Assembly: GCF_015223355.1 (NCBI RefSeq)
Contig: NZ_JADFFK010000012.1
Coordinates: 1 to 64,000 of the forward strand
Origin: Salipiger mangrovisoli
Lineage (GTDB): Bacteria; Pseudomonadota; Alphaproteobacteria; Rhodobacterales; Rhodobacteraceae
Direction of reading: 5' to 3'
Length of the DNA stretch: 64,000 nucleotides
Positions 1-13,517 of the stretch are shown here, piece after piece; within the stretch, counting starts at the first letter, position 1, and every line of letters begins with the position of its first letter. Below the pieces are notes generated by a model. The model worked only from the letters and a program-made list of their open reading frames with translations. It did no database searches and was not told the DNA's origin. Position numbers and translations under genes: made by a program.

Positions 1-90
1 AACGACTACGGCGCCTTGGGCGACACCTCGACCCTCGCCGACCCCTCGGTCGTCGACGACCTCATCGAAAACCGCGCGAACAAGGGGTGA
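1..90 (+). CDS. acs: Acetyl-CoA synthetase, C-terminal 29 residues (5' end outside window)
   Basis: An open frame enters from the left edge and stops at TGA 88-90. The visible tail contains GDTSTLADPSVVDDLIENR, which matches the very end of AMP-forming acetyl-CoA synthetase (E. coli Acs ends with a closely similar GDTSTLADPGVV segment). The enzyme converts acetate, ATP and CoA to acetyl-CoA, AMP and PPi in the cytoplasm. The downstream adenylate kinase and sodium:solute symporter fit this: one removes the AMP, the other would bring in acetate. The lysine-acetylation motif and active site lie outside the window, so the call rests on the C-terminus plus context. Confidence 0.85.
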   Translation, partial: NDYGALGDTSTLADPSVVDDLIENRANKG

Positions 91-95
91 GCGAG

Positions 96-779
96 ATGGA
101 GGCAACCACCGTGACCCGCGCCCCCGTGCTCATCCTTCTCGGCCCTCCGGGGGCCGGGAAAGGCACCCAGGCGCGCAAGCTCGAGGACAAGTACGGGCTG
201 GTGCAGCTCTCGACCGGCGATCTGCTGCGCGCCGCCGTGGCGCAGGGCACCGAGGCCGGCAAGGCCGCCAAGGCGGTGATGGAGGCCGGCGGGCTGGTCA
301 GCGACGAGATCGTCATCGCCATCCTGCGCGACCGCATCAAGGCGCCCGACTGCACCAGCGGTGTGATCCTCGACGGCTTCCCGCGCACCACGGTGCAGGC
401 CGAGGCGCTCGACGCGCTGCTGGCCGAGAGCGGGCAGAAGATCAACGCAGCGATCAGCCTCGAGGTGGACGATGCCGCCATGGTCGAGCGGATCTCGGGC
501 CGCTACACCTGCGGCGCCTGCGGCGAGGGCTATCACGACAGGTTCAAGACGCCGAAAGAGGACGGCGTCTGCGACAATTGCGGCGCGACGGAAATGAAGC
601 GCCGCGCCGATGACAAGGCGGAAACGGTGGCCTCGCGGCTCGAGGCCTACCACGCTTCGACCGCCCCGCTCATCGGCTACTACGAAGGCAAGAACGCCCT
701 GAGCCGCATCGACGCGATGGGCAGGATCGAGGAGGTCGCCGCCGGGCTCGGCGCGATCGTGGAGAAAGCGACGGGCTGA
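96..779 (+). CDS. adk: Adenylate kinase with zinc-type LID
   Basis: Adenylate kinase catalyses AMP + ATP = 2 ADP in the cytosol. The 227-residue product has the P-loop GPPGAGKGT (residues 16-24), the nucleotide-binding LSTGDLLR segment, the DGFPRT motif and a long LID. The LID carries two Cys-x2-Cys pairs (C139/C142 and C159/C162), so it is the metal-binding form. ATG 96 is chosen because AAGGGG lies about 8 bases upstream; a GTG at 87 in the same frame overlaps the acs stop as GTGA and is the alternative. The position directly behind acs makes sense because Acs releases AMP. Whether another adk copy sits in the ribosomal protein operon cannot be seen here. Confidence 0.95.
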   Translation: MEATTVTRAPVLILLGPPGAGKGTQARKLEDKYGLVQLSTGDLLRAAVAQGTEAGKAAKAVMEAGGLVSDEIVIAILRDRIKAPDCTSGVILDGFPRTTVQAEALDALLAESGQKINAAISLEVDDAAMVERISGRYTCGACGEGYHDRFKTPKEDGVCDNCGATEMKRRADDKAETVASRLEAYHASTAPLIGYYEGKNALSRIDAMGRIEEVAAGLGAIVEKATG

Positions 780-834
780 CCGTCGACGGCCGCTCAAAGG
801 AGGGGCGGCTGCATTTTCAGGAGGAGGAACCGCC

Positions 835-1122
835 ATGGCGGATCAATCAACGCACCATGCGCATGGCGCCGAGGAGGCCGGCAAGGCCTACTGGTCGGCC
901 AACCTGCGCCTCATCTACATCAGCCTGGTCATCTGGGCGCTGTGCAGCTTCGGCTTCGGCATCCTGCTGCGCCCGATGCTCTCGGGCATCAAGGTCGGCG
1001 GGTCCGACCTAGGCTTCTGGTTCGCCCAGCAGGGCAGCATCATCGTCTTCCTGGCGCTGATCTTCTTCTACGCCTGGCGGATGAACAAGCTCGACCGTGA
1101 ATACGGCGTGGACGAGGAGTAA
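835..1122 (+). CDS. DUF4212 protein, small subunit of sodium:solute symporter
   Basis: This 95-residue protein has a polar His-rich N-terminus, two membrane helices (about residues 27-47 and 65-83) and a short charged C-terminus. The pattern and its position 6 bases before a large symporter gene match the DUF4212 family (putative solute:sodium symporter small subunit). It probably associates with the large subunit in the inner membrane. A GGAGGAGG stretch precedes the ATG. The pair is usually linked to acetate or other short-chain carboxylate uptake next to acs; the substrate is inferred from context, not from the sequence. Confidence 0.9.
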   Translation: MADQSTHHAHGAEEAGKAYWSANLRLIYISLVIWALCSFGFGILLRPMLSGIKVGGSDLGFWFAQQGSIIVFLALIFFYAWRMNKLDREYGVDEE

Positions 1123-1128
1123 GGCGCC

Positions 1129-2910
1129 ATGGATCAGTTCACCATCAACCTGCTGTTCGTGGGCGCCTCCTTCGCGCTCTACATCGGCATCGCGATCTGG
1201 GCCCGCGCGGGCTCCACGTCGGAATTCTACGCCGCCGGGCGCGGCGTGCACCCGGTCACCAACGGCATGGCGACGGCGGCGGACTGGATGTCCGCGGCCT
1301 CCTTCCTGTCGATGGCGGGCCTCATCGCCTTCACCGGCTATGACAACTCGGCCTACCTGATGGGCTGGACCGGCGGCTACGTGCTGCTGGCGCTGCTGCT
1401 TGCGCCCTACCTGCGCAAGTTCGGCAAGTTCACCGTGTCGGAATTCATCGGCGACCGCTTCTACTCGCCGACCGCGCGTCTCGTGGCGGTGATCTGCCTG
1501 ATCATCGCCTCGACCACCTACGTGATCGGCCAGATGACCGGCGTCGGCGTGGCCTTCGGCCGCTTCCTCGAGGTGGACAGCACCACCGGCCTGCTGATCG
1601 GCGCAGTGATCGTCTTCGCTTACGCGGTGTTCGGCGGCATGAAGGGCGTGACCTACACGCAGGTCGCGCAATACGTCGTGCTGATCCTCGCCTACACCAT
1701 CCCGGCGATCTTCATCTCGCTGCAGCTGACCGGCAACCCGATCCCCGGCCTCGGCCTCTTCGGAACCGACCAGGCCTCGGGCGAGCCGCTGCTGGCCAAG
1801 CTCGACCAGATCGTGCGCGAGCTGGGCTTCGGCGAATATACCGCCCACAACGGCGACACGCTCAACATGGTGCTCTTCACCCTGTCGCTGATGATCGGCA
1901 CCGCCGGCCTGCCGCACGTTATCATGCGGTTCTTCACCGTGCCCAAGGTGGCCGACGCACGCTGGTCCGCCGGCTGGGCACTGGTCTTCATCGCCCTGCT
2001 CTACCTGACGGCCCCGGCCGTGGGCGCGATGGCACGCCTCAACATCACCCAGCAGTTCTGGCCGGAAGGCACCGAGGGCAAGGCCGTCTCGATCGAGCAG
2101 ATCGAGAACGACCCGGCCTATGACTGGATGGCAACCTGGCAGAAGACCGGTCTGCTGACCTGGAACGACACCAATGGTGACGGGCTGATCCAGTACTACA
2201 ATGACAAGAACCCCGCGATGCAGGAAAAGGCCACGGCCGAAGGCTGGGCCGGCAACGAGCTGACCAAGTTCGACAACGACATCCTCGTGCTCGCCAACCC
2301 CGAGATCGCCAACCTTCCGGGTTGGGTGATCGGCCTCGTCGCTGCCGGTGGTCTTGCCGCCGCGCTGTCGACCGCCGCCGGCCTGCTGCTCGCCATCTCC
2401 TCGGCGGTCAGCCACGACCTGATCAAGGGTCAGATCAACCCCGCAATCTCCGAGAAGGGCGAGCTCATGTCGGCCCGCGTCGCCATGGCCGTGGCCATCG
2501 CCGTCGCGACCTGGCTTGGCATGAACCCGCCGGGCTTCGCGGCGCAGACCGTGGCGCTGGCCTTCGGCCTTGCCGCTGCCTCGATCTTCCCGGCGCTGAT
2601 GATGGGCATCTTCTCGAAGGTGAACAACAAGGGCGCCGTGGCGGGCATGATCGCCGGCCTGCTGGTCACCCTGGTCTACATCTTCCTGCACAAGGGCTGG
2701 TTCTTCATCCCCGACACGGCGAGCTACTCGGACGCCGATCCCATGCTCGGCACGATCAAGTCGACCTCGTTCGGCGCAGTCGGGGCGCTGGTGAACTTCG
2801 TGGTGGCCTTCACGGTCTCGGCGATGAGCAAGCCGATCCCGCGCGAGATCTCGCAGCTGGTGGAAAGCGTGCGCATTCCGCGCGGTGCCGGTGCAGCCCA
2901 GGATCACTGA
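1129..2910 (+). CDS. Sodium:solute symporter, large subunit (ActP-like, VC_2705 subfamily)
   Basis: The 593-residue protein has about a dozen hydrophobic helices and SSS-family features: an N-terminal SxSEFYAAGR segment, the GMATAADWMSAASFLSMAGL helix, and QYVVLILAYTIPAIF. It is related to the acetate permease ActP but belongs to the group paired with DUF4212. A periplasmic or cytoplasmic loop around residues 330-375 contains DTNGDGLIQ (347 onward), which resembles a calcium-binding EF-hand loop. The gene begins 6 bases after the small-subunit gene and is followed by a strong terminator-like hairpin at 2960-2993. Likely role: sodium-driven uptake of acetate feeding Acs; pyruvate or other small carboxylates are alternatives. 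Confidence 0.92.
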   Translation: MDQFTINLLFVGASFALYIGIAIWARAGSTSEFYAAGRGVHPVTNGMATAADWMSAASFLSMAGLIAFTGYDNSAYLMGWTGGYVLLALLLAPYLRKFGKFTVSEFIGDRFYSPTARLVAVICLIIASTTYVIGQMTGVGVAFGRFLEVDSTTGLLIGAVIVFAYAVFGGMKGVTYTQVAQYVVLILAYTIPAIFISLQLTGNPIPGLGLFGTDQASGEPLLAKLDQIVRELGFGEYTAHNGDTLNMVLFTLSLMIGTAGLPHVIMRFFTVPKVADARWSAGWALVFIALLYLTAPAVGAMARLNITQQFWPEGTEGKAVSIEQIENDPAYDWMATWQKTGLLTWNDTNGDGLIQYYNDKNPAMQEKATAEGWAGNELTKFDNDILVLANPEIANLPGWVIGLVAAGGLAAALSTAAGLLLAISSAVSHDLIKGQINPAISEKGELMSARVAMAVAIAVATWLGMNPPGFAAQTVALAFGLAAASIFPALMMGIFSKVNNKGAVAGMIAGLLVTLVYIFLHKGWFFIPDTASYSDADPMLGTIKSTSFGAVGALVNFVVAFTVSAMSKPIPREISQLVESVRIPRGAGAAQDH

Positions 2911-2959
2911 GCGGTGACCCCGCGCGGGGGCGCAGGCGCGCCCTCGCCCTAGGCAAATG

Positions 2960-2993
2960 TCCCGTCCCGCGCTATGCCGGGGCGGGATTTTTT
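2960..2993 (+). terminator. Rho-independent terminator after the symporter
   Basis: TCCCGTCCCG (2960-2969) pairs with CGGGGCGGGA (2978-2987) with one G-U wobble and an 8-base loop, followed by six T residues. It separates the symporter transcription unit from the downstream nucleotidyltransferase gene, although read-through remains possible. Confidence 0.85.
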
Positions 2994-3033
2994 CTTCCGC
3001 GATTGCCCCTTATCGCACCACCGGAGCGCCAAA

Positions 3034-4857
3034 ATGCCGATTGAGCCCGACGACCTGCGCCGTTTCCTGACCTCGGTGCACCCCTATGACGCGCTGGACA
3101 CCGATGCGCTCGACGTGCTGGTGCCGCAGTTCCTCACGCGCAGCTACAAGCCGGGCGAGGAAATCTACGCCGTCGGCGCGCAACTCGAGGGGCTCTACCT
3201 CGTCCACAGCGGCCAGGTGGAGATTCGCGACGAGAACGGCGTCGCCGTCTCGTTGCTGGGTCCGCGCAATTCCTTCGGCGAGCGCGGGCTGATGCGCGAG
3301 GGCCTGGCTGCCACCACCGCCAGCTCGCTCGATGACACGGTGCTGCTGCTGCTGCCCGCCTATGCCTTCCGCGAGCTGGTGGCCGAACATGCCGCCGCCC
3401 GCCGCTTCTTCGACCGTTCGCGCGCCGCGCGGCCGCGCAAGTCCGACCTCGCGCACAGCCGGGTCGAGACGCTGATGGCCCGCGCCCCGCTCACCGTGCC
3501 CCCCGAGACCCCCGCCCAGCAAGCGGCCCTGATGATGCGCGAAGAGGCGGTGTCGTCGCTCTGCGTCACCGAGGGGCGCGACCTCATCGGCATCGTCACC
3601 ATCCGCGACATCTCGGCCAAGGTGGTTGCGGGCGGCATGGACATCAACGTCCCCGTCTCCGAGATCATGACCCATTCGCCGGTCACCCTGCCGCCCTCGG
3701 CGATCGGCTCGGACGTGCTGCACACGATGGTCGAACGCGGCATCGGCCATGTGCCGATCACCGACGCCGGGCGGCTAGTGGGCATCGTCACCCAGACCGA
3801 CCTCACCCGCTTCCAGGCGGTCAGCTCGGCCGAGCTGGTCGCCGCCATCGCCCGCGCCCGCAGCCCCGAGCAGATGGCCGAGACCACCGCCCGCATCCCG
3901 CAGTTGCTGGCGCAGCTCGTCGCCAACGGCAATCGCCACGAGGTGACGACGCGGCTGATCACCGACATCGCCGACACGGTCACCCGCCGCCTGCTGGCGC
4001 TGGCCGAGGAGGACTTGGGCTCGGCCCCGGTGCCCTGGCTGTGGCTGGCCTGCGGTTCGCAGGGACGGCAGGAACAGACCGGCGTGTCGGACCAGGACAA
4101 TTGCATGATCCTCGACGACAGCGCCACCGAGCGCGACATGGAATACTTCGCGGAGATGGCGAAGTTTGTCTGCGACGGCCTTGATAAAGCGGGATATTTC
4201 TACTGCCCTGGTGACATGATGGCGACCAACCCGCGCTGGCTGCAGACGCAATCGGTGTGGCGCAAGTACTTCCGGGGCTGGATCGAGACGCCCGACCCCG
4301 AGGCCCAGATGCTGGCCTCGGTGATGTTCGACCTGCGGCCCATCGGCGGCAGCAAGTCGCTGTTCGAGGACCTGCAGGCCGAGACGCTGGACGCCGCCTC
4401 GAGGAATTCGATCTTCACCGCCCACATGATTTCCAACTCGCTCAAGCACACCCCGCCGCTCGGCCTCTTGCGCGGCTTTGCCACGATCCGCTCGGGCGAG
4501 CACAAGAACACCGTCGATCTCAAGCACAACGGCGTGGTGCCCGTGGTCGATCTGGCGCGGGTCTACGCGCTGCAGGCACGGGTGCCCGAAGCCGGCACCC
4601 GCGCCCGGATCGAGGCGGCGATCGCCGCCGGCACCGTTTCCGGCTCGGGCGGTCAGGATTTGCTCGATGCCTATGATCTGATTGCCGAAACCCGCCTTGA
4701 GCATCAGGCAGCTCTGGTCAAGCGCGGCGAAAAGCCCGACAACTATCTGGCGCCGTCCGACCTGTCGGATTTCGAGCGCAGCCACCTGCGTGACGCCTTC
4801 GTGGTGATCAAGTCGATGCAATCGTCGATCGGTCACGGGCGCGGCATGCTGGGCTAG
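3034..4857 (+). CDS. cNMP-binding / CBS / DUF294 nucleotidyltransferase-like signalling protein
   Basis: The 607-residue protein has three parts: a cyclic-nucleotide-binding-like domain (about residues 10-130, with GLYLVHSGQVEI and FGERGLM), two CBS motifs (about 145-265), and a DUF294 nucleotidyltransferase domain with GSQGRQEQTGVSDQDN (341-356), the GlnD-type GSxGRxE and DxDN signature. A helical DUF294 C-terminal domain follows. The family is thought to uridylylate or adenylylate an unknown target in response to nucleotides. No membrane segment is present. ATG 3034 begins just before the cNMP domain; a frame-open extension to 2974 runs through the terminator and is rejected. The downstream membrane protein and exonuclease follow closely and appear co-transcribed. 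Target and product are unknown. Confidence 0.88.
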   Translation: MPIEPDDLRRFLTSVHPYDALDTDALDVLVPQFLTRSYKPGEEIYAVGAQLEGLYLVHSGQVEIRDENGVAVSLLGPRNSFGERGLMREGLAATTASSLDDTVLLLLPAYAFRELVAEHAAARRFFDRSRAARPRKSDLAHSRVETLMARAPLTVPPETPAQQAALMMREEAVSSLCVTEGRDLIGIVTIRDISAKVVAGGMDINVPVSEIMTHSPVTLPPSAIGSDVLHTMVERGIGHVPITDAGRLVGIVTQTDLTRFQAVSSAELVAAIARARSPEQMAETTARIPQLLAQLVANGNRHEVTTRLITDIADTVTRRLLALAEEDLGSAPVPWLWLACGSQGRQEQTGVSDQDNCMILDDSATERDMEYFAEMAKFVCDGLDKAGYFYCPGDMMATNPRWLQTQSVWRKYFRGWIETPDPEAQMLASVMFDLRPIGGSKSLFEDLQAETLDAASRNSIFTAHMISNSLKHTPPLGLLRGFATIRSGEHKNTVDLKHNGVVPVVDLARVYALQARVPEAGTRARIEAAIAAGTVSGSGGQDLLDAYDLIAETRLEHQAALVKRGEKPDNYLAPSDLSDFERSHLRDAFVVIKSMQSSIGHGRGMLG

Positions 4858-4875
4858 GGACCTGAGGGGGGAGAG

Positions 4876-5382
4876 ATGTTCTACGAATTGATTGCCGTGC
4901 TGGTGGCCGGCCTTGCCGGGGCCGGCGTGGTGATGCTGCTCAGTCGCGCGACGGGCGGACGGCTGCCGCGCTGGATGATCCCCCTGGGAGCCGGGGCGGC
5001 GATGCTGATCGCCTCCATCGCCAGCGAATACAGCTGGTACGGCAGCACCGCCCAATCGCTGCCGGAGGGCTTCGAGATCGTCGAGACCCATGCCTCCACG
5101 GCGCTCTGGCGGCCGTGGACTTATGCCGTCCCGATGACCGACCGCTTCATCGCGGTGAACGCCGGCGGGCGGCGCGAAAATGCGCAGACGCCGGGCCTCT
5201 ACCTCGCCGATCTCTATTTCTTCGCGCGCTGGCAGCCGACGCAGGTGGTCGAGGTCATGGTCGATTGCCCCGGCGGACGCCGCGCCGACCCCATGGGCGG
5301 CGATGGCGGCACGCCGCGCTGGCGCGAGGTCGGGTCCGAGGACAGCATCGTCGCCGCGGTCTGCCCGGAGGCGCGCACGTGA
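4876..5382 (+). CDS. Small membrane protein of unknown function in acetate locus
   Basis: The 168-residue product has two hydrophobic segments near the N-terminus (about 4-24 and 35-52), then a soluble region with WRPWTYAVPMTDRFIAVN and VEVMVDCPGGRRAD. I do not recognise a named family. A GGGGGGAGAG ribosome-binding site precedes the ATG, 18 bases after the DUF294 gene. Its stop overlaps the GTG start of the exonuclease gene (GTGA, 5379-5382), indicating translational coupling. The soluble part would face the periplasm if both helices cross the membrane with the N-terminus outside; topology is uncertain. It is plausibly an accessory part of the nucleotidyltransferase/exonuclease pair. Confidence 0.8.
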   Translation: MFYELIAVLVAGLAGAGVVMLLSRATGGRLPRWMIPLGAGAAMLIASIASEYSWYGSTAQSLPEGFEIVETHASTALWRPWTYAVPMTDRFIAVNAGGRRENAQTPGLYLADLYFFARWQPTQVVEVMVDCPGGRRADPMGGDGGTPRWREVGSEDSIVAAVCPEART

Positions 5383-6785
5383 CCCATCTGAGCCTGCGCC
5401 TGCGCATCTTCCTCTTCTTCGTCCTGATTGCGGTCGGCGGTGCGGGGATCATGGCGCTGGCGCTCTGGCTCGGCTACGGGCGCGCGCTCGGCACCACGCC
5501 CGGCAACGGCTTTGTCTTTGCCGGCATTCTTGCCATCTTCGGCCTGACTGCGCTGACCGTCGGCGTCTGGCTGCTCTTCGACGAGAATGTCGCCAAGCCG
5601 GTCGAGCGCATCGCCTCGGAGATGCGCGTGCGCGCGCATGCGGGGGTCGAGCGGCAGGTGGACACCCATGCCGCGCGCTACCTCGGCGATCTGGCGCATG
5701 CGGCCGAGGCGGTCTCGGCCCGGCTGACGGAAACCGCGCTGGCCTCGGCGCAGCGGGTGGCCGAGGAGACCGCGCAGCTCGCCGCCGACAAGGAACGGCT
5801 GACCGCCCTGCTCACCGAGATCCCCGTGGCCACCCTCATGGTCAGCCCCAATGGCCGCATCGTGCTCTACGATGGGCAGGCCGCCGAGGTGCTCGCCCAG
5901 ATCCACGTGCCGCGGCTCGACGCGGCGGTGACCGATTATTTCCTCGCAGCCGGGGTCGAAGCCGCGGTGCGCGAGATGCATCGCACCGGCCGCGAGGTCA
6001 CGCTCACCCTGCGCTCGGTCGACGAGGCGCAAAGCTACCTGGGGCGGATGAAACCGCTCGACGCAGGCGGCTATCTGCTGATCATCGAAGAGGCCGAGGC
6101 GCGCCTTCCGCCACAGGCCGAGCGCCCGATGGTTTTCGACTTCTCGCTGCTCACCGCACCGGCCCCTGCCGCGCTGGAGGACACGCCGCTGCGGGCCTTG
6201 ACCTACGTGGTGTTCGACACCGAGACGACGGGACTGCTGCCGCACAAGGACGAGGTGGTGCAGATCGGTGCGGTGCGGGTCGTGAACGGGCGCATCGTTC
6301 CCGGCGAGCAGATCGACCAGCTGGTCGATCCCGGCATCCCGATCCCGCAATCCTCGACCAGGGTGCACAAGGTGACCGACGCCATGGTGCACGGCCAGCC
6401 GGACATCGCCGAGGCCGGGCGGCGCTTTCATCACTTCGCCCGCAACGCGGTGATCGTGGCGCATAATGCGCCCTTCGACATGGCTTTCCTGCGCCGCCAC
6501 CAGTCCCGTATGGGGATCGACTGGACCAATCCGATCCTCGACACGGTGCTGCTGTCGGCGGTGCTTTTCGGCGCGAGCCAGACCCACACGCTGGATGCGC
6601 TCTGCGACCGGCTCTCCGTGTCCATCCCCCCCGCTCGGCGGCACACCGCGCTCGGCGATGCGCAGGCCACCGCCGAGGTGCTGGTCAGGATGCTGCCGAT
6701 GCTGGAAGCGCAGGGAATGGCGACCTTCGGCGCGGTGCTGGCGCAGACCCGGCAGCACGGGCAACTTCTGGAAGACCTGAACTGA
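5379..6785 (+). CDS. Membrane-anchored DEDDh 3'-5' exonuclease (DnaQ-like)
   Basis: The 468-residue protein begins with two membrane helices (about 8-31 and 43-67). A HAMP-like/coiled-coil stretch (70-145) and a PAS-like sensor region (about 146-240) follow. The DEDDh exonuclease domain spans about 275-440: VFDTETTG gives D280 and E282, NAPFD gives D367, and RRHTALGDA gives H422 and D427. All five catalytic residues are present. It starts at GTG 5379, overlapping the previous stop by 4 bases. Anchoring to the membrane with a sensor linker argues against a role as the replicative proofreading subunit; degradation of a small nucleotide or removal of a nucleotidyl group is an inference. Its 3' end overlaps the convergent gene by 101 bases. 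Confidence 0.88.
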   Translation: MTHLSLRLRIFLFFVLIAVGGAGIMALALWLGYGRALGTTPGNGFVFAGILAIFGLTALTVGVWLLFDENVAKPVERIASEMRVRAHAGVERQVDTHAARYLGDLAHAAEAVSARLTETALASAQRVAEETAQLAADKERLTALLTEIPVATLMVSPNGRIVLYDGQAAEVLAQIHVPRLDAAVTDYFLAAGVEAAVREMHRTGREVTLTLRSVDEAQSYLGRMKPLDAGGYLLIIEEAEARLPPQAERPMVFDFSLLTAPAPAALEDTPLRALTYVVFDTETTGLLPHKDEVVQIGAVRVVNGRIVPGEQIDQLVDPGIPIPQSSTRVHKVTDAMVHGQPDIAEAGRRFHHFARNAVIVAHNAPFDMAFLRRHQSRMGIDWTNPILDTVLLSAVLFGASQTHTLDALCDRLSVSIPPARRHTALGDAQATAEVLVRMLPMLEAQGMATFGAVLAQTRQHGQLLEDLN

Positions 6786-7575
6786 GGCTGTCGAGCGCCG
6801 CCTGCACGGCCTCGCGCGGAGCGGACCCAGATGGCAGCCGCGCCAGCGCCGCCAGCCGCGGCTCGAGGGCGCACATGGCGGCGTGTAGCGCGACCGCGCG
6901 CGGGATCACCCGGCCCGCACCCGCCCGCGGCAGCGGCCAGTAGGCGCAGACCGGCGGCGGCATTTGCGAACCGAGCGGCAGGGCATCCGCCGCGACGGTG
7001 TCGAGGGCGATCACCATATCCGCACCCCGTTCCATCGCGCCGCGCGGAACGTCGCCGGGCGGCGGCAGTCCCCAGACCCCGAGCAGCGCCAGCAGCAGCG
7101 GATCGAAGGCACAGGCGGGGTCAGCGCCCGCCGCCGACACGCGCGCCCCGCCCCTGAGCCGCCGCCGCGCCAGCGCCGCGGCCAGCGGCGACAGCAGCGC
7201 GCCGTCCGAGCAGAGAAACAGCAGCCGCGCCCTGGCCGACCTGCGCCTGCCCGGAACCTCGCGCTCCGGCACCGCGCCGGCCCGCCCCAGCGCCACATCC
7301 GCCCCGAGCCAGTCGATCACATGCGCCAGCGCGCCCGGCACCGCGTGGTAGAGCCGCAGCGGCCCCTGCGCACGCTGCACCAGCAGCCCCGCGTCGCAGA
7401 GCGCCGCCAGATGCGCCGAGAGCGTCGAGGGCGGCACCGCCAGCGCGCGCGCCAGATCGCCCGCAGCCAGGGGATGCGGCAGATGGCGGATCAGCAGCCG
7501 CAGCACCGTGACGCGCAGCGGGTTTCCGAGCAATCCGAGACGGGCGAGACAAAGCGGTTCCATGTCCTTCCGCAT
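6685..7575 (-). CDS. ArsR-like HTH fused to degenerate low-molecular-weight phosphatase domain
   Basis: The 296-residue protein has a winged helix (about 12-80, with STLSAHLAALCDAGLLVQR) and then a domain that aligns by motif with LMW phosphatase/arsenate reductase: LLFLCSDGALLS, SAAG, a DPLLLALLGVWGL segment, GADMVIALD and YWPLPRAGA. The phosphatase P-loop CX5R is broken: C122 is present but the Arg position is L128. The general-acid Asp of the usual WxxxDP motif is R217. Catalysis is therefore unlikely, and the domain probably senses a ligand or is decaying. The ArsR metal-binding ELCVCD motif is absent. The C-terminal 33 residues overlap the 3' end of the exonuclease gene. It is divergent from the ABC-F gene, 99 bases away. 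Confidence 0.8.
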   Translation of the reverse strand: MRKDMEPLCLARLGLLGNPLRVTVLRLLIRHLPHPLAAGDLARALAVPPSTLSAHLAALCDAGLLVQRAQGPLRLYHAVPGALAHVIDWLGADVALGRAGAVPEREVPGRRRSARARLLFLCSDGALLSPLAAALARRRLRGGARVSAAGADPACAFDPLLLALLGVWGLPPPGDVPRGAMERGADMVIALDTVAADALPLGSQMPPPVCAYWPLPRAGAGRVIPRAVALHAAMCALEPRLAALARLPSGSAPREAVQAALDSLSSGLPEVARAAGSAPAPRRRSPFPALPASAAS

Positions 7576-7674
7576 AGCTCAGGCGCCTTGAAGGCAAGGT
7601 TAACGCCACCGGCCCGCCTGACCTCCTCACGCGCCCACTTGACCTTTCCCCGGCGCGGCCCTAGCGCTCTGGGC

Positions 7675-9504
7675 ATGGCACAGGCACCCCTTCTCCAGCT
7701 CTCCGACATCGCGCTCACCTTCGGTGGCGAGCCGGTGTTTTCCGGCCTCTCGCTCAACGTCCAGCCCGGCGACCGCGTCGCGCTGGTCGGCCGCAATGGC
7801 TCGGGCAAATCCACCCTGATGAAGGTCATGGCGGGCTTCGTCGAGCCCGACACCGGCGAGCGCATCGTGCCGCCGGGCATCTCGGTGGGCTACATGGAGC
7901 AGGAGCCGGACCTCTCGGGTTTCGAGACGCTGGGCGATTATGCCGCCGAGGGCCTCGGCCCGGCGGAAATGTACAAGGTCGAGGCAGCGGGCGAAGGGCT
8001 CGGCTTCGACCCCGCCCGCCCCGTCGCCACCGCCTCGGGCGGCGAGCGCCGACGCGCCGCGCTCGCCAAGCTGATGGCACAGGACCCGGACGTCATGCTG
8101 CTCGACGAGCCGACGAACCACCTCGACATCAACGCGATCGGCTGGCTCGAGGACGAGCTGAAGCGCACCCGCAAGGCCTTCGTCCTGATCTCGCACGACC
8201 GGCGCTTCCTCGAGAACCTCACCCGCGCCACGCTGTGGATCGACCGCGGCGCGGTGCGCCGTCAGGAGCAGGGCTTCGCTGCCTTCGAGGTTTGGCGCGA
8301 CAAGACCTGGGCCGAGGAGGACGAGGCCCGCCACAAGCTCGACCGCAAGATCAAGGCCGAGGCGAAATGGGCGGTCGAGGGCATCTCGGCCCGCCGCACC
8401 CGCAACCAGGGCCGCGTGCGCGCGCTGCAGGCGCTGCGCGCAGAGCGCTCGTCGCAGATCCGTCGCCAGGGCACCGCGGCAATGGAGCTGTCCTCTGGCC
8501 CGACCTCGGGCAAGAAGGTGATCGAGGCCGTGGCGCTCACCAAGGGCTTCGGCGACAAGCAGATCGTCAAGGAGTTCTCGCTGACCGTGATGCGCGGCGA
8601 CCGCGTCGCCTTTGTCGGTCCGAACGGCGTCGGCAAGACCACCCTCATCCGCATGCTGATGGGCGAGATCGCGCCCGACGCCGGCAGCGTCAAGCTCGGC
8701 ACCAACCTGATGCCGGCGATCTTCGACCAGACCCGCGCCCGGCTCGACCCCGAGATGACGCTCTGGGAAAGCCTCACCGGCGATCCCGAGATGCGCGTTT
8801 CCGGCAAGGCCGACCAGGTGCTGGTACGCGGCCAACCCAAGCATGTCGTCGGCTACCTCAAGGAATTCCTCTTCGACGAGCGCCAGGCCCGCGCGCCCGT
8901 GCGGTCCCTCTCGGGCGGCGAGAAGGCCCGGCTGCTGCTGGCCAAGATCATGGCCAGCGAAAGCAACATGCTGGTGCTCGACGAACCGACCAACGATCTC
9001 GACGTGGAAACGCTCGACCTGTTGCAGGACCTGCTCGGAGACTATGACGGCACCGTGCTGCTGATCAGCCATGACCGCGACTTCCTCGACCGGGTGGCCA
9101 GCTCGACCATCGCCATGGAGGGCGACGGCCGTGCCGTCGCCTACGCCGGCGGCTGGAGCGACTACCAGGCGCAGAAGGCCGAGGCCGAGGCGGCGAGCGC
9201 ACCGAAGGAGAAGCCCGTCGCCAAGCCCGGCAAGGACAGCTCCGCCGCGCCGAAACCCAAGGCGCAGCAGAAGGGCATGAGCTTCAAGGACAAGCACCGG
9301 CTGGAGGAACTGCCCGGCCTGATCGACCGGCTGACCGCCGAGATCGGCAAGCTTGAAGGGCTGCTGGCGGACCCCGAGCTCTTCACCCGCGAGCCGATGA
9401 AGTTCAAGAAAGCCACCGAGGCGCTGGACGAGCGGCAGGAAAAGCTCGCCGCCGCCGAGGAGGAATGGCTGGAACTCGCGGAGAAGGCCGAAGCGGCAGG
9501 CTGA
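7675..9504 (+). CDS. uup: ABC-F ATPase, Uup-like
   Basis: The 609-residue soluble protein has two ABC cassettes and no membrane segments. Cassette 1 has GRNGSGKS (39-46), an ASGGERRR signature and MLLDEPTNHLD. Cassette 2 has GPNGVGKTT, LSGGEKAR and LVLDEPTNDLD. A charged linker lies between them and the C-terminus ends in a coiled coil (LEELPGLIDRLTAEIGKLEG region), which is typical of Uup. ABC-F proteins act on ribosomes; Uup also influences branched DNA intermediates and transposon excision. ATG 7675 is selected because the family N-terminus starts there; the upstream extension is antisense to the ArsR fusion gene. Twin palindromes follow the stop. Confidence 0.92.
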   Translation: MAQAPLLQLSDIALTFGGEPVFSGLSLNVQPGDRVALVGRNGSGKSTLMKVMAGFVEPDTGERIVPPGISVGYMEQEPDLSGFETLGDYAAEGLGPAEMYKVEAAGEGLGFDPARPVATASGGERRRAALAKLMAQDPDVMLLDEPTNHLDINAIGWLEDELKRTRKAFVLISHDRRFLENLTRATLWIDRGAVRRQEQGFAAFEVWRDKTWAEEDEARHKLDRKIKAEAKWAVEGISARRTRNQGRVRALQALRAERSSQIRRQGTAAMELSSGPTSGKKVIEAVALTKGFGDKQIVKEFSLTVMRGDRVAFVGPNGVGKTTLIRMLMGEIAPDAGSVKLGTNLMPAIFDQTRARLDPEMTLWESLTGDPEMRVSGKADQVLVRGQPKHVVGYLKEFLFDERQARAPVRSLSGGEKARLLLAKIMASESNMLVLDEPTNDLDVETLDLLQDLLGDYDGTVLLISHDRDFLDRVASSTIAMEGDGRAVAYAGGWSDYQAQKAEAEAASAPKEKPVAKPGKDSSAAPKPKAQQKGMSFKDKHRLEELPGLIDRLTAEIGKLEGLLADPELFTREPMKFKKATEALDERQEKLAAAEEEWLELAEKAEAAG

Positions 9505-9521
9505 ACCCGCCGTCGCCGGCC

Positions 9522-9541
9522 AAATCTCTTCGAAGAGATTT
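9522..9541. terminator. Perfect 20-bp palindrome, bidirectional terminator candidate
   Basis: AAATCTCTTCGAAGAGATTT is a perfect palindrome with a TTCGAA centre and A/T-rich ends, between the convergent ABC-F and AbrB genes. The terminal A and T runs would give a U-tract in both directions. Confidence 0.65.
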
Positions 9542-9565
9542 GCAAGAGCCTTCGAAGGCTCTTGC
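9542..9565. terminator. Perfect 24-bp palindrome abutting the previous one
   Basis: The arm GCAAGAGCCTTC is followed at once by its complement GAAGGCTCTTGC, giving a perfect palindrome with the same TTCGAA centre. It starts at the base after the first palindrome and ends 3 bases before the stop of the AbrB-family gene. It may form a double hairpin terminator or a protein-binding site. Confidence 0.6.
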
Positions 9566-9568
9566 CTC

Positions 9569-10654
9569 TTACTCGCCCGGCTGGTGCAGCGGCAGGCGCT
9601 TCTCGGCAATCACCATGACCCCCACGGTCAGCAGGATGCGCACCACGTGGTGCAGGCTGACCAGCGCCGGGTTGGCGGCAAGCGACAGCGCGATGATCGA
9701 CATCTCGGTGACGCCGCCCGGCGCATAGGAGATCATCAGGTGCAGGAACGGGATGTCGGTCGCCCAGGTCAACCCCAGCGCGAAACTGCCGCCGAGCGCC
9801 AGCATCCACAGCACCGACAGAAAGCTGAGCCCGGCCGAACGCCGCAGCATCGCCGCGGTCATGCCGGTGAAGCGCACGCCGAGCGAGCTGCCCACCACCA
9901 CCTGCGCCGCGGCGATCAGCCAGAACGGCAGGTGCATGTCCACTAGGCCGGACAAGGTCAGCGCCGCCGAGAGCAGCAGCGGCCCGGTGATCTGCCCCGC
10001 CGGCAGCTTGATCTTCGAGGCCACGAAGAGCCCGGCGAGCGCCGCCAGAACGACCACGAGCAGCTCCGCCGCCGTGGCGGGCCCCGTGGGCATGACGCTC
10101 TGGCCGGCGGCGCTGCCGACCGGATGACCGACCCACAGCGACAGCGCCGAGGGCAGGATCGAGATGACCAGGATGATGCGCAGGAACTGCTGCGCGGTCA
10201 GCAGCCGCAGATCCGCTCCCGCCCTCTCGCCGAGCACCAGGCTTTCCATCAACCCGCCCGGCGCGCCGGCGTAAAAGGCCGTTGCCCGATCATAGCCGCC
10301 AAGACGGTGGAAGATCAGGAAGTTGCCGAATTGCGCCAGCACCACGAAGGCGGCCAGCATCGACAGGGTCAGCGGCAGTTCGGGCAGCAGCGCGAAGATC
10401 TCGGGCGTGACCTGCGTGCCGATCATCACGCCGATGAGCCCGATGAACAGTGTCCGGAACCGCATCGGAAAGGCGTAGTCCGCCAGCGCGCGCCGGTGGA
10501 ACAGCGCCACCGCGGCACCCGAGGTGAAGAGCGAGCCGAGCATATAGGGCATCGGCAGATGCGCCAACTGCGCGAGCCAGCCGCCAAGGCTGCCCGCAAC
10601 CAGCAGGCAGCCGGTGGTGAGGATCATCCGGAGGGAGAGCGTCGAAAGGGTCAT
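9569..10654 (-). CDS. AbrB-family (AbrB_dup) integral membrane protein
   Basis: The 361-residue protein has about ten hydrophobic helices arranged as two similar halves, with the family motifs LPMPYMLGSLFTSGAA in the first half and LPAGQITGPLLLSAAL in the second. These match the gram-negative AbrB duplication family (TIGR03082), once called ammonia monooxygenase or putative regulator, whose function is unknown. YAPGGVTEMSIIALSL is another conserved segment. It is an inner-membrane protein. ATG 10654 gives a standard N-terminus (MTLSTLSLRMILTTG) with a membrane helix; the longer frame to 10795 runs through a repeat and is rejected. Confidence 0.88.
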   Translation of the reverse strand: MTLSTLSLRMILTTGCLLVAGSLGGWLAQLAHLPMPYMLGSLFTSGAAVALFHRRALADYAFPMRFRTLFIGLIGVMIGTQVTPEIFALLPELPLTLSMLAAFVVLAQFGNFLIFHRLGGYDRATAFYAGAPGGLMESLVLGERAGADLRLLTAQQFLRIILVISILPSALSLWVGHPVGSAAGQSVMPTGPATAAELLVVVLAALAGLFVASKIKLPAGQITGPLLLSAALTLSGLVDMHLPFWLIAAAQVVVGSSLGVRFTGMTAAMLRRSAGLSFLSVLWMLALGGSFALGLTWATDIPFLHLMISYAPGGVTEMSIIALSLAANPALVSLHHVVRILLTVGVMVIAEKRLPLHQPGE

Positions 10655-10834: not shown

Positions 10835-11398
10835 TCAGCGCGCCAGGTCGCTGGCGATGCGGGTGGCGAGCTGGTCGGTGGCACTGCCCGCCGCCGCGGC
10901 GATTCCGGCGGCGCTGGCCGCGGCCAAGGGTACGGTGATCTCGAAGCGGTTGACGCGTTCGCGGATCACCCTGTCGTAGGACGACAGCGCGTATTGCCCC
11001 TTGAGCCGGAACGTTCCCGCCTCACTCGCCACCGCCTCGGACACGCGCACATGCACCGCCGCCTGCGCCGGTTCCTCGAGCGGCCAGGGTTCGGCGGCCA
11101 CGGTCGCGCCGCTGATCTGCCCGAGGCGCTCGGCCAACGCCTGGGTCATCGCGCGGCGCGGATCGTCGGCCCAGAGCGCACCCTCGACCTGGTTCATCGC
11201 GCCGGAGGTCTCTTCGAGCAGGATCTCGGAGGCATCGGCATAGGCCGGCAGCGAGACCTCGCGCACTTCGAGCGTGCCCACGGCGAGACGGACGCTGGCG
11301 GTGGGCGGGGCGGTCTCCATCCGGTAGCGCGGCTCGGAGCCGCAGGCGGCGGCAAGAAGCGGCAGCAGCAGAAGCGGGAGGGTCGTCTTGAGGCGCAT
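10835..11398 (-). CDS. pqiC: ABC-type transport auxiliary lipoprotein, PqiC family
   Basis: The 187-residue protein starts with a lipoprotein signal (MRLKTTLPLLLLPLLAAAC) with the lipobox Cys at residue 19. The remainder resembles the PqiC/LptE-like auxiliary domain (DUF330), with YRMETAPPTASVRLAVGTL near the N-terminus. It would be anchored in the outer membrane and receive the PqiB needle that crosses the periplasm. It is the last gene of a four-gene operon; its start is 13 bases after the pqiB stop. ATG 11398 is chosen because it puts the signal peptide at the N-terminus. Confidence 0.9.
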   Translation of the reverse strand: MRLKTTLPLLLLPLLAAACGSEPRYRMETAPPTASVRLAVGTLEVREVSLPAYADASEILLEETSGAMNQVEGALWADDPRRAMTQALAERLGQISGATVAAEPWPLEEPAQAAVHVRVSEAVASEAGTFRLKGQYALSSYDRVIRERVNRFEITVPLAAASAAGIAAAAGSATDQLATRIASDLAR

Positions 11399-11411
11399 TC
11401 GGGGTCTCCTG

Positions 11412-13517
11412 TCAGCGGCCGAAGAGCAGCGAGTTGGGGTTGCGTTCGATCGTGCGGGCAAGTTTGTTCAACGCCTCGGCGGCGGTCTGCACCTCGCGCA
11501 GGGCCGAAACGGTCTGGCGGTTGAAGGCAGAATTGCCGTCATAGCCCTTGATCACCTGCTCCGCCTCGGCGACGAGGCGCTGGATGCGCGCCGAGAGGTC
11601 GGGCAGCGTGGCCGCCGCCTCCTCCACCGCCGCGGCGGCGTCGCGCGCCGAGGCCAGCGTGGCATTGGTGTTCTCGATCACCCCGCCGGCGCGCAGCTCG
11701 GAAAGCGCGCCCTGCGCCTCCTGCAGCATGGCCGAGAGATCGGCGGGCAGCTGGCGGGTGCTGTCCTGGTCGACGAGCTTGCCCGCCCCGTCGAGGAACT
11801 GCCCGGCATCGGCCAGGAAGCTTTCCAGGTCGAGCGCCGTGGCCTTCTGAGTGAGCGCCCGCAGATCGGCGAGCAGGTCGGGCACGCCGGCCATGCTCTC
11901 ATCCACCGAGCCCGCCACGCCGGTGACCTCTTCTGCCGCGGCCTCGGCCGCCTCGAGGGTCGACACCAGTTGCTGCACCGCGCCGGCGGCGCGCATGTCC
12001 TCGATCACCCCGCGCAGCTCGGCGACGGTGCCGCGCAGCTCGCCCGGAATGGCCTGGATTTCCTCGTTGCCGATCAGCCCGCGGGCGTCTTCGAGCAGGC
12101 CGATCACCGCCTCCGGGGCGTCGCGCAGACGCGGGTTGGCGGTGAAGTTCTCGATCGAGGCCAGGGTGTCGATCGCCTGGTCGAGCAGGTCCTCGACCGG
12201 CAGGTCGTTGATCCTCTGGAACAGGCCCTCGGCGGTGGCGGTGATGTCCGGCAGGTCCGACTCGACCGAGGGGATCAGCGGCGCGTCCTGGGCGAAGACG
12301 CCGAAGGTCGCGGGCTCGGCGTCCGGCACCTCGGCCAGTTCGACCACCAGCGACTGGCTGAACAGGCTCTGCGAGGCCAGCCGGGCGCGCAGCCCGTTCT
12401 TCACCGCGTTGGACAGGAAGGCGATGGTGTCGGACTGCGGCGCCTCTTCCTCGAGCCCCAGCGCGCGGGGATCGATCGAGAGCGTGGTGCGCAGGCGCAC
12501 GGTCTGCTGCTCGCCCTCGCCGTCGATGAAAGCCCCGATGGCGGTGACCCGGCCAACGCGCAGCCCGCGGTAGGTGACCGAGGATCCGACCTCGAGCCCG
12601 CGCACGGATTCGTCGAATTCGGCGGTCAGCTCCACCGCGTTGGAAATGCTTTCCGAGAACAGGCTGTCGCGGGCCGCCGCCTCGTCATCGTAGAGGTCGA
12701 AGGCGTAGCCCGCCGGCACCGCGTTGCCGCCCGAGACCACGGTGTCGAAGGCGATCCCGCCGCGGATCAGCGCGGCCACCGAGCCGACCGAGAGGTTGAG
12801 ACCCGATGGGCCGATGTTGACCGAGAAGCCCGAGGTGTCCCAGAACCGCGTTGCCGTGGTGATGCGGCGATCGTTCGGGGCCTCGATGAAGGCATCGACG
12901 ACGACGCCGTTGCCGCGCTCGAGCAGCCGCGGGGTCTCGATCCGGCCGACCTCGATGCCGCGGTAGAAGATCGGCGCGCCGGCCGAGAGCTGCGTGCCAT
13001 CATCGGCGCGGATGGTGATGCGCGTGCCCTTCACGCCGGGGCGCACCAGCGGGCTGGTGTCGAGGCCGCGGAAGCTGCGCGCAGTGGCCCCCTCCTCGGG
13101 CGCGAAGCCCGCCTCGATGTAGACCCCCGAGAGGACGGTCGAGAGCCCGGTGATCCCGGAGGTCGAGACCTCGGGGCGGACCACCCAGAACTCTGCGTCA
13201 GACGGCAGCGAATCCGCCACGTTGCGGTCGATCCGCGCGGTGACGCGCACCTCGGCCAGGTCGTCCGAGAAGACCACGTCCTCGACCGTTCCGACGACCA
13301 CGTCACGGTAGCGGATGGTGGTCTCTTCGGCGGTGATCCCGGCGGCGTTCTCGAAGGTGATCTCGATCTTCGCGCCGCGTTCGGCAAAGCTCTGCCAGGC
13401 GATGAACAGCGTCACCGCGATGGCAGCCATCGGCACCAGCCAGACCAGCGAGAGGTTGCGCCAGACGGAGCGGCGCTTGGGCTCGATCTCCATCTGGGCC
13501 GGTTTCGGATCACTCAT
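11412..13517 (-). CDS. pqiB: Intermembrane transport protein PqiB, three MCE domains
   Basis: The 701-residue protein has one N-terminal membrane helix (about 22-43) and three MCE repeats: GAKIEITFENAAGI, GTRITIRADDGTQLS with GAPIFYRGIEVGRIE, and LTAEFDESVRGLEVGSSVTYRGLRVG. A long helical C-terminal part (about 430-690, Ala/Leu/Glu rich) fits the coiled-coil needle of PqiB. In E. coli this forms a tunnel for lipid movement between the membranes. The start overlaps the pqiA2 stop by 4 bases (ATGA). The opposite strand carries a 779-residue open frame that is only a shadow. Confidence 0.95.
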   Translation of the reverse strand: MSDPKPAQMEIEPKRRSVWRNLSLVWLVPMAAIAVTLFIAWQSFAERGAKIEITFENAAGITAEETTIRYRDVVVGTVEDVVFSDDLAEVRVTARIDRNVADSLPSDAEFWVVRPEVSTSGITGLSTVLSGVYIEAGFAPEEGATARSFRGLDTSPLVRPGVKGTRITIRADDGTQLSAGAPIFYRGIEVGRIETPRLLERGNGVVVDAFIEAPNDRRITTATRFWDTSGFSVNIGPSGLNLSVGSVAALIRGGIAFDTVVSGGNAVPAGYAFDLYDDEAAARDSLFSESISNAVELTAEFDESVRGLEVGSSVTYRGLRVGRVTAIGAFIDGEGEQQTVRLRTTLSIDPRALGLEEEAPQSDTIAFLSNAVKNGLRARLASQSLFSQSLVVELAEVPDAEPATFGVFAQDAPLIPSVESDLPDITATAEGLFQRINDLPVEDLLDQAIDTLASIENFTANPRLRDAPEAVIGLLEDARGLIGNEEIQAIPGELRGTVAELRGVIEDMRAAGAVQQLVSTLEAAEAAAEEVTGVAGSVDESMAGVPDLLADLRALTQKATALDLESFLADAGQFLDGAGKLVDQDSTRQLPADLSAMLQEAQGALSELRAGGVIENTNATLASARDAAAAVEEAAATLPDLSARIQRLVAEAEQVIKGYDGNSAFNRQTVSALREVQTAAEALNKLARTIERNPNSLLFGR

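Follow-up and report, generated by a model that had tools for sequence, protein, structure and literature searches.

The closest described relatives of the genes considered here are pp_0354 and pp_0353 of Pseudomonas putida, which form an operon encoding a CBS-domain protein and an RNase_T exonuclease (PMC9927547). There, pp_0354 is induced by acetate and its promoter is bound by ErdR (PMC8402216), control of the pair by MxtR/ErdR (CrbS/CrbR) has been shown in Pseudomonas (PMC9927547, PMC8402216, PMC5715377), and homologues in other pseudomonads lie beside actP/yjcH. In P. aeruginosa, PA3232-PA3235 were about 16-fold higher on propionate; in a separate experiment, its addition was followed by a 2-fold decrease of PA3233-PA3235 (PMC9765439). 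Here we describe a similar pair in Salipiger mangrovisoli (Rhodobacterales), a DUF294 nucleotidyltransferase and a membrane DEDDh exonuclease encoded near the start of contig NZ_JADFFK010000012.1 (assembly GCF_015223355.1), of which positions 1 to 64,000 (the window) were taken as the starting point. We propose, with a probability of about 40%, that these two proteins are the opposite arms of one nucleotide-based switch, a writer and an eraser, which probably acts on carboxylate uptake.

The gene pair and its operon are already published; the accessible text of the three Pseudomonas papers (PMC9927547, PMC8402216, PMC5715377) does not describe fusions, a kinase-like exonuclease or a spread outside Pseudomonas. 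Among open-licence papers, none was found on the fusions, on the dedicated exonuclease family or on the putative kinase-derived eraser, and no literature was found that combines DUF294 with an exonuclease, or DUF294 with acetate and an exonuclease (PMC9927547 describes such a pair without the name DUF294), that treats DUF4212, or that reports an exonuclease in a kinase-like architecture.

The presumed writer in the window (607 amino acids; 3034..4857, plus strand) combines a cNMP-like domain (PF00027), a pair of CBS domains (PF00571), the DUF294 nucleotidyltransferase domain (PF03445, 3.6e-48) and DUF294_C (PF10335, 1.6e-46). The last two pass their curated cut-offs with 163.4 and 158.1 bits, and the catalytic site, GSQGR...SDQD, is unbroken, as the first-pass annotation of this DNA had read it. 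The GlnD uridylyltransferase is built of a nucleotidyltransferase domain, GlnD_UR_UTase, HD and ACT. Like GlnD and GlnE, the window protein joins a polymerase-beta nucleotidyltransferase to a related C-terminal domain, and the proposed logic is again one of reversible modification. In contrast to them, it carries CBS/cNMP input, Pfam finds no GlnD_UR_UTase, HD or ACT domain in it besides cNMP, CBS, DUF294 and DUF294_C, and removal would fall to a DEDDh exonuclease encoded by a gene of its own. Another protein with a CBS pair, AcuB, acts in acetyl-CoA synthetase control. It has been solved with AMP and ADP (9s4v) and is the first bacterial entry, at rank 6, among the fold matches of the DUF294 protein model; unlike the DUF294 protein, it has no nucleotidyltransferase domain. 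The presumed eraser (468 amino acids; 5379..6785, plus strand) is assigned to the RNase_T/DEDDh exonucleases by its Pfam match (1.7e-34, 120.2 bits) and by the motifs FDTETTG, HNAPFD and RRHTALGD.

Distribution and co-inheritance of the pair

The main set of 113 loci consists of 100 of the PF03445 matches listed for 397 Pseudomonadota genomes, 12 Rhodobacterales loci and the window; L001, which is the window again, was excluded. Stretches of up to 17 kb around each match were examined, 1.88 Mb in total. Near-identical loci (e.g. L011/L012) were retained, and the survey counts are thus not independent. One locus from Alloyangia mangrovi (L004:2997-4818) has its DUF294 gene in two overlapping frames, possibly through a frameshift or sequencing error; it was counted via the better piece and excluded from analysis A5. 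At E<=0.001, a PF03445 match was present in 297 of the 397 sampled genomes, many of these matches being weak and probably GlnD-like.

A DEDDh exonuclease gene is encoded on the same strand no more than 1 kb downstream in 99 of the 113 DUF294 loci, while only two exonuclease matches unrelated to such a locus (L014 and L050) occur in the same 1.88 Mb. The pairing is far above chance. It is equally apparent in a sample of lower-scoring DUF294 proteins, taken to offset the bias toward top scores, where the exonuclease gene lies directly downstream in 19 of 20 stretches (19 genomes; the exception is L178). An SSS transporter gene accompanies 59 of the 99 pairs, and the remaining 40 have neither an SSS nor a DUF4212 gene in the stretch; therefore the pair itself is the unit. 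The first-pass annotation had expected the two genes to travel together with DUF4212/SSS genes. Co-occurrence of DUF294 with the exonuclease stands, and extends to other phyla, but the transporter is a less constant companion.

Eight of 62 matching annotated plasmid records, picked for spread, illustrate the range of contexts. The Pseudomonas aeruginosa and Methylocella plasmids have the order DUF485, cation acetate symporter, DUF294, exonuclease, and the Ruegeria and Rhizobium records show the gene order of the window without acs or adk. On a Cytobacillus (Bacillota) plasmid the DUF294 and exonuclease genes have no acetate gene within 5 kb, and on a Hymenobacter (Bacteroidota) plasmid (L193:3815-6425) the exonuclease and DUF294 genes lie in a LacI/GH43 glycoside-hydrolase cluster, a non-acetate context. 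The idea that the pair is a peculiarity of Rhodobacterales was rejected, as it is present across Pseudomonadota and in other phyla. The same observations bear on the simplest explanation of the locus, an ordinary acetate operon that carries two unrelated housekeeping-type genes. The acs-adk-transporter set is indeed clear in Rhodobacterales; however, a pairing that persists without the transporter, in other phyla and as gene fusions already contradicts this explanation, which we consider barely credible.

In five proteins (L143, L145, L146, L151 and L152) the two parts occur on one chain, with an N-terminal exonuclease followed by CBS, DUF294 and DUF294_C; the domains were confirmed by Pfam, and all five catalytic residues of the exonuclease are kept. 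A sixth fusion (L142:9459-11612) has the same layout and a degenerate exonuclease part, which gives no RNase_T match at E<=0.001, has Asp in place of the motif I Glu, and has motif III outside the alignment, with its Asp gone by eye. The neighboring gene encodes a sensor-type exonuclease in which none of the five catalytic residues is missing, and loss of the fused copy beside an intact one is expected if both exonucleases share one job. The fusions surfaced in the same 397 genomes via a profile of the sensor-type exonucleases (5 of 10 second-tier matches and 1 of 29 new sensor-type matches), and hence do not represent an unbiased sample of DUF294 proteins.

The partners have also been inherited together. 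Distances in the DUF294 and exonuclease trees are strongly correlated (Mantel r 0.881, n=99). For the six genomes with several pairs, the true partner assignment gives a higher correlation than any other of the 192 possible arrangements, and the own partner proved closer in all 16 comparisons. The DUF294 site residues GS..R and DQD are conserved in 113 of 113 proteins, and the motif I and motif III residues in all 99 paired exonucleases. At motif II, the 99 enzymes have Asp (52), Glu (46) or Asn (1). The Glu type (HYRRIERxFL type, e.g. L018:7202-8059) falls within a single 53-row branch (support 1.0), and on this alignment Glu at motif II is a conserved variant of the DEDDh site. In the first CBS domain, Gly, Thr and Asp, which we take to be the adenosine-binding consensus, are kept in 113, 110 and 109 of 113 proteins. 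The residues of the cNMP pocket are poorly conserved in columns judged by eye. Sensing of cyclic AMP (cAMP) by the N-terminal domain was rejected as the default, since the column taken by eye for the phosphate-cassette Arg has Arg in 39 of the 113 proteins and that of the Glu has Glu in 32, and the window protein has Ala at the Arg position.

The 143 DUF294-linked exonucleases form one FastTree clade (support 0.72) against 25 others, namely 20 ordinary DnaQ-like and 5 unpaired enzymes. In an IQ-TREE analysis of 77 rows, which took 26 of 72 soluble and 20 of 65 sensor rows, two changes were needed, and a single clade was neither rejected (p-AU 0.49) nor shown. Independent recruitment of many different exonucleases is unsupported by these trees.

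Architecture of the exonucleases and adjacent signaling genes

The AlphaFold2 (AF2) model of the window exonuclease (mean pLDDT 78.1) consists of two long N-terminal helices, a low-confidence coil, an alpha/beta domain and the DEDDh domain. HAMP/PAS-like regions had been suspected here in the first-pass annotation. We read the alpha/beta domain of the model as PAS-like; Pfam has no PAS match in the window exonuclease and weak ones in three longer relatives (L086, L096 and L197). HAMP was not confirmed, with no Pfam match in the window exonuclease or in the relatives scanned, and with low model confidence in the region concerned. The best 50 Foldseek matches of the model are all exonucleases (PolC-exo, DnaQ, RNase T and ExoX). 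The window enzyme shares with PolC-exo, DnaQ epsilon, RNase T and ExoX the fold and the D-E / D / H-D residues (PolC exo matches with 9e-31 by sequence and 3e-13 by fold). The DUF294-linked enzymes differ from these in their own FastTree clade, in having a sensor N-terminus or a DUF294 partner, and in the frequent Glu at motif II.

The presence of RNase T and DnaQ among the nearest folds would suit an RNA-end switch, in which DUF294 would extend the 3' end of a tRNA or small RNA and the exonuclease would trim it, so that translation or RNA stability would follow the carbon supply. Extension of tRNA ends is known for polymerase-beta enzymes such as MenT, and gene fusion would suit two enzymes sharing a nucleic-acid end. 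However, this leaves the membrane anchoring and the transporter neighbors unexplained, and DUF294_C has been placed alongside GlnD/GlnE, a group that modifies proteins (PMC3710099). We consider an RNA-end switch unlikely, though likelier than the other alternatives to the proposed writer and eraser.

Among the first 36 sensor-type exonucleases, 22 are short (461-472 residues), as in the window, and 14 are long (655-733 residues), with 189-249 extra residues between the PAS-like domain and the exonuclease. A profile of the 14 extra stretches matched, among solved structures, ZraS (5.7e-7), FixL (1.9e-4) and KdpD (4.6e-4), with the first non-kinase at 0.1. When aligned by hhalign to the kinase domains of neighboring SSS kinases, it gave 200 columns with probability 95.5 and E 1.5e-8. 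Single-sequence Pfam searches of the 14 long forms at E<=1 found HATPase_c in 2 and HisKA in 1. The long exonucleases keep the order of transmembrane (TM), PAS, DHp and CA regions known from the sensor kinases ZraS, KdpD and FixL. Unlike in these kinases, the output is an exonuclease, the ATP boxes are gone by eye, and none of 34 DHp-like segments has His at the phospho-accepting position (by eye, 23 E, 3 D, 4 P, 2 T, 1 Q and 1 M). By profile homology, the long exonucleases carry a degenerate histidine-kinase (DHp+CA) module, and the window exonuclease is the short form of a larger sensor, lacking the kinase-like module of its longer relatives. Intermediate exonucleases, in which the CA-like part is kept and the DHp-like helices are partly lost, were found at L011:12349-14388 and in L012, L044, L054, L060, L083 and L089.

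Such sensor-style architecture is typical of signal enzymes and would also suit a messenger pair, in which DUF294 makes a small nucleotide or dinucleotide and the exonuclease degrades it, as oligoribonuclease does with linear dinucleotides. The CBS pair could read the product, and polymerase-beta enzymes include cyclic-dinucleotide synthases. No receptor-like gene, on the other hand, stands constantly beside the pair in all contexts, in a search of the neighbors with seven window-derived profiles and the kinase and receiver profiles only. A messenger pair is, in our estimate, a long shot.

The kinase-like helices of the sensor exonucleases co-occur with a further gene. Among all 65 sensor exonucleases found, a receiver-only gene lies just upstream of 33 of the 34 with DHp-like helices and of none of the 31 without them, including 22 short forms. 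The same holds within the 41 exonucleases that retain the CA-like part (32 of 33 with helices vs 0 of 8 without). The receiver-only genes were found by profile, and Pfam Response_reg was seen for L197 and L200. Of the 42 long forms, 22 have a histidine kinase of the SSS-fused type encoded within 5 kb, and of the 23 short forms none does; a DUF294 gene is present in the stretches of 38 of 42 long and all 23 short sensor exonucleases. On the tree, the helices require three changes and the receiver gene four (64 of 65 rows, L135 excluded), the extra change being L117. This pattern suggests that the receiver docks on the DHp-like helices, and that both would have been lost in the lineage of the window.

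Neighboring genes in the window

Upstream of the pair, the first-pass annotation had described Acs, Adk and a two-subunit symporter as an acetate set, and had linked such neighborhoods to ActP-type genes in other proteobacteria. Adk (adenylate kinase; 87..779, plus strand; PF00406, 7.5e-56), one of two copies in the genome (the other is on contig C45), and the two symporter subunits are borne out. The latter are a DUF4212 small subunit (835..1122, plus strand; PF13937, 2.2e-34; TIGR03647, 113.6 bits) and an SSS symporter (1129..2910, plus strand; TIGR03648, 807.4 bits). Both TIGRFAM scores are over the cut-off and place the transporter in the VC_2705 family. ActP identity was rejected (TIGR02711, 146.3 bits vs a cut-off of 1099.25), and the setting differs in this respect from that of pp_0354/pp_0353, with its ActP/YjcH neighbors. 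Because the symporter scores so far under the ActP cut-off, its role in acetate uptake is inferred from the acs and adk neighbors alone.

Of Acs (acetyl-CoA synthetase), the window holds the C-terminal 29 residues and the stop codon (1..90, plus strand), recognized by translation and by the same tail on the open reading frames (ORFs) of relatives before adk. The contig begins at the window start, and the remainder of Acs is off the contig. Directly upstream of this adk, 17 of the 28 loci that have it show an ORF with the same tail, 648-758 codons long from stop to stop. Among the other adk loci, L033 has a 340-codon ORF cut by the contig end, L005 has none, and in nine, the window included, the stretch ends there. 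The contigs of the window genome and of 6 of the 12 Rhodobacterales relatives (L002, L003, L004, L007, L008 and L010) end inside or just past the last part of acs, and the stretches of L033, L047 and L068 also reach a contig end at or within acs. A second acs copy was considered as the cause of these ends and rejected, as the 90-bp tail has no second copy and no Acs in the assembly of the window exceeds the TIGR02188 cut-off (best 621 bits vs 725).

The symporter and DUF294 genes are separated by a terminator-like stem-loop with a T tail (2959..2988, plus strand). The first-pass annotation had placed a terminator here; the structure is present, while shuffled sequence gives a mean of 1.2 such sites against the one found. 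The alternative start codon of the DUF294 gene, ATG 2974, falls inside this stem, and for this reason ATG 3034 is the most likely start.

Between the two genes of the pair lies one for a small membrane protein of 168 amino acids (4876..5382, plus strand), to which Pfam and a search for relatives assign no family. This gene and the membrane exonuclease had both been predicted correctly. Coupling by overlaps was right for the small gene and the exonuclease gene, which share 4 bp (5379-5382), but the DUF294 gene is followed by an 18-bp gap without overlap. Relatives of the small protein (L032, L063, L101, L103 and L110) adjoin DUF4212-SSS genes or follow an exonuclease. Since they occur by SSS genes away from the exonuclease, the protein may belong with the transporter. 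No RNA family reached its gathering score in positions 1-9600. Farther downstream (10835-13517), an ABC_trans_aux lipoprotein gene (PF03886) lies beside a minus-strand ORF of 701 residues that appears by eye to be of MCE/Pqi type.

The proposed switch and published mutants

DEDDh enzymes act on the phosphate of a terminal nucleotide, with an alcohol as the leaving group, and the bond of a nucleoside monophosphate (NMP) to a protein oxygen is a phosphodiester of the same kind. The epsilon subunit of E. coli hydrolyzes the p-nitrophenyl ester of thymidine monophosphate (TMP), an aryl-NMP like nucleotidyl-tyrosine. Because protein-O-NMP and the substrates of DEDDh enzymes share this type of bond, we favor DUF294 as the writer and the exonuclease as the eraser. 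In the proposed switch, the DUF294 domain, a member of the polymerase-beta superfamily, would transfer NMP from a nucleoside triphosphate to a target, and the dedicated DEDDh enzyme would hydrolyze the resulting phosphodiester and free the NMP. The CBS pair may read the adenylate state, which Acs would shift through its conversion of ATP to AMP. The eraser of the window is predicted to be membrane-bound, with the signal entering via its TM/PAS-like part. In the longer relatives the eraser would be a decayed histidine kinase, most probably signaled by the receiver-only response regulator, which in turn would be phosphorylated by the adjacent transporter-like (SSS) histidine kinase. The likeliest target is a carboxylate uptake system (the SSS transporter or its small subunit), which would be off when modified.

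If the mark inhibits the transporter, loss of the eraser would lock uptake off and loss of the writer would do nothing, which is the published mutant pattern. In P. putida, growth on pyruvate is poorer in the exonuclease mutant and in the actP-I mutant but not in the DUF294-type mutant (PMC9927547), which is consistent with an eraser that maintains transporter activity. The same paper cites transposon data from other groups that give pp_0353 and actP-I a role at 5 mM acetate; its authors could not test this. A role of the P. fluorescens homologue Pflu5625 in nucleotidylation is cited as an earlier prediction, with no target or reverse enzyme in the accessible text (PMC5715377).

The mutants can also be accommodated by a regulated ribonuclease of metabolic mRNAs, whereby the exonuclease is the effector and DUF294 regulates it, perhaps by nucleotidylation. 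Henriquez et al. speculate that pp_0353 acts in mRNA decay (PMC9927547), the pyruvate defect is seen in the exonuclease mutant and not in the DUF294-type mutant, the exonuclease architecture receives signals, and adjacent or fused proteins could be an enzyme and its regulator. Opposite enzymes, however, explain the near-invariant pairing and the fusions at least equally well and predict the same mutant phenotypes. A regulated ribonuclease strikes us as quite improbable.

Several observations weigh against the writer/eraser switch. Fourteen of the 113 loci have no exonuclease gene within 1 kb downstream. In four of these (L086, L094, L096 and L112) a long exonuclease is encoded farther away or on the opposite strand, and ten have none in the stretch (L026, L030, L037, L040, L071, L081, L093, L097, L098 and L100). 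Conversely, a DUF294 gene is missing from the stretches of 4 of the 42 long sensor exonucleases, and L117 is a long form with helices and no receiver gene upstream. The match of receiver gene and helices reflects 2-3 independent losses; two well-supported independent pairs co-change (p 0.5), a test without power because the pairs are so few. The DUF294 protein model is poor in its C-terminal half and its best 50 Foldseek matches are CBS/cNMP folds; for this reason a fold search for the catalytic domain was set aside and the catalytic fold is unconfirmed by structure. PolC, DnaQ, RNase T and ExoX, the closest DEDDh enzymes in sequence and fold, act on DNA or RNA. Since the pair also occurs with no transporter nearby and in unrelated contexts, an uptake system cannot be its sole target. 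Finally, neither the DUF294-type nor the exonuclease mutant of P. putida was impaired on 20 mM acetate (PMC9927547), and the Pflu5625 mutant had no phenotype (PMC5715377). Normal growth of mutants on acetate, which the first-pass annotation had named as telling against its idea, is therefore half borne out.

Among the loci without an exonuclease in the stretch, L097:7794-10421 encodes a Cache-PAS-DUF294 protein of about 860 residues, and L098 and L100 are alike in length and score.

The first-pass annotation had thus described the locus correctly apart from the corrections given above, and its interpretation, a nucleotide-based on/off switch controlling transport or Acs, is partly supported. 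The writer/eraser core has been strengthened by a strong and widespread coupling of the two genes, their fusions and the retention of the catalytic residues and of the CBS1 consensus, whereas the focus on acetate has been weakened by the pairs without transporter genes and by the non-acetate contexts. More doubtfully, we suggest that the pair may be a reversible nucleotidylation system of a new kind, with a CBS-gated DUF294 writer and a DEDDh-family eraser that is often the output of a decayed histidine kinase responding to a separate response regulator and to a kinase of transporter-like type.

In its regular exonuclease partner, sometimes naturally fused to it, DUF294 gains a candidate reverse enzyme. 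If the proposal is true, an exonuclease fold of the proofreading type has been redeployed to erase marks on proteins or metabolites and also serves as an output of two-component signaling, and annotations of a '3'-5' exonuclease' beside transporters would need rereading.

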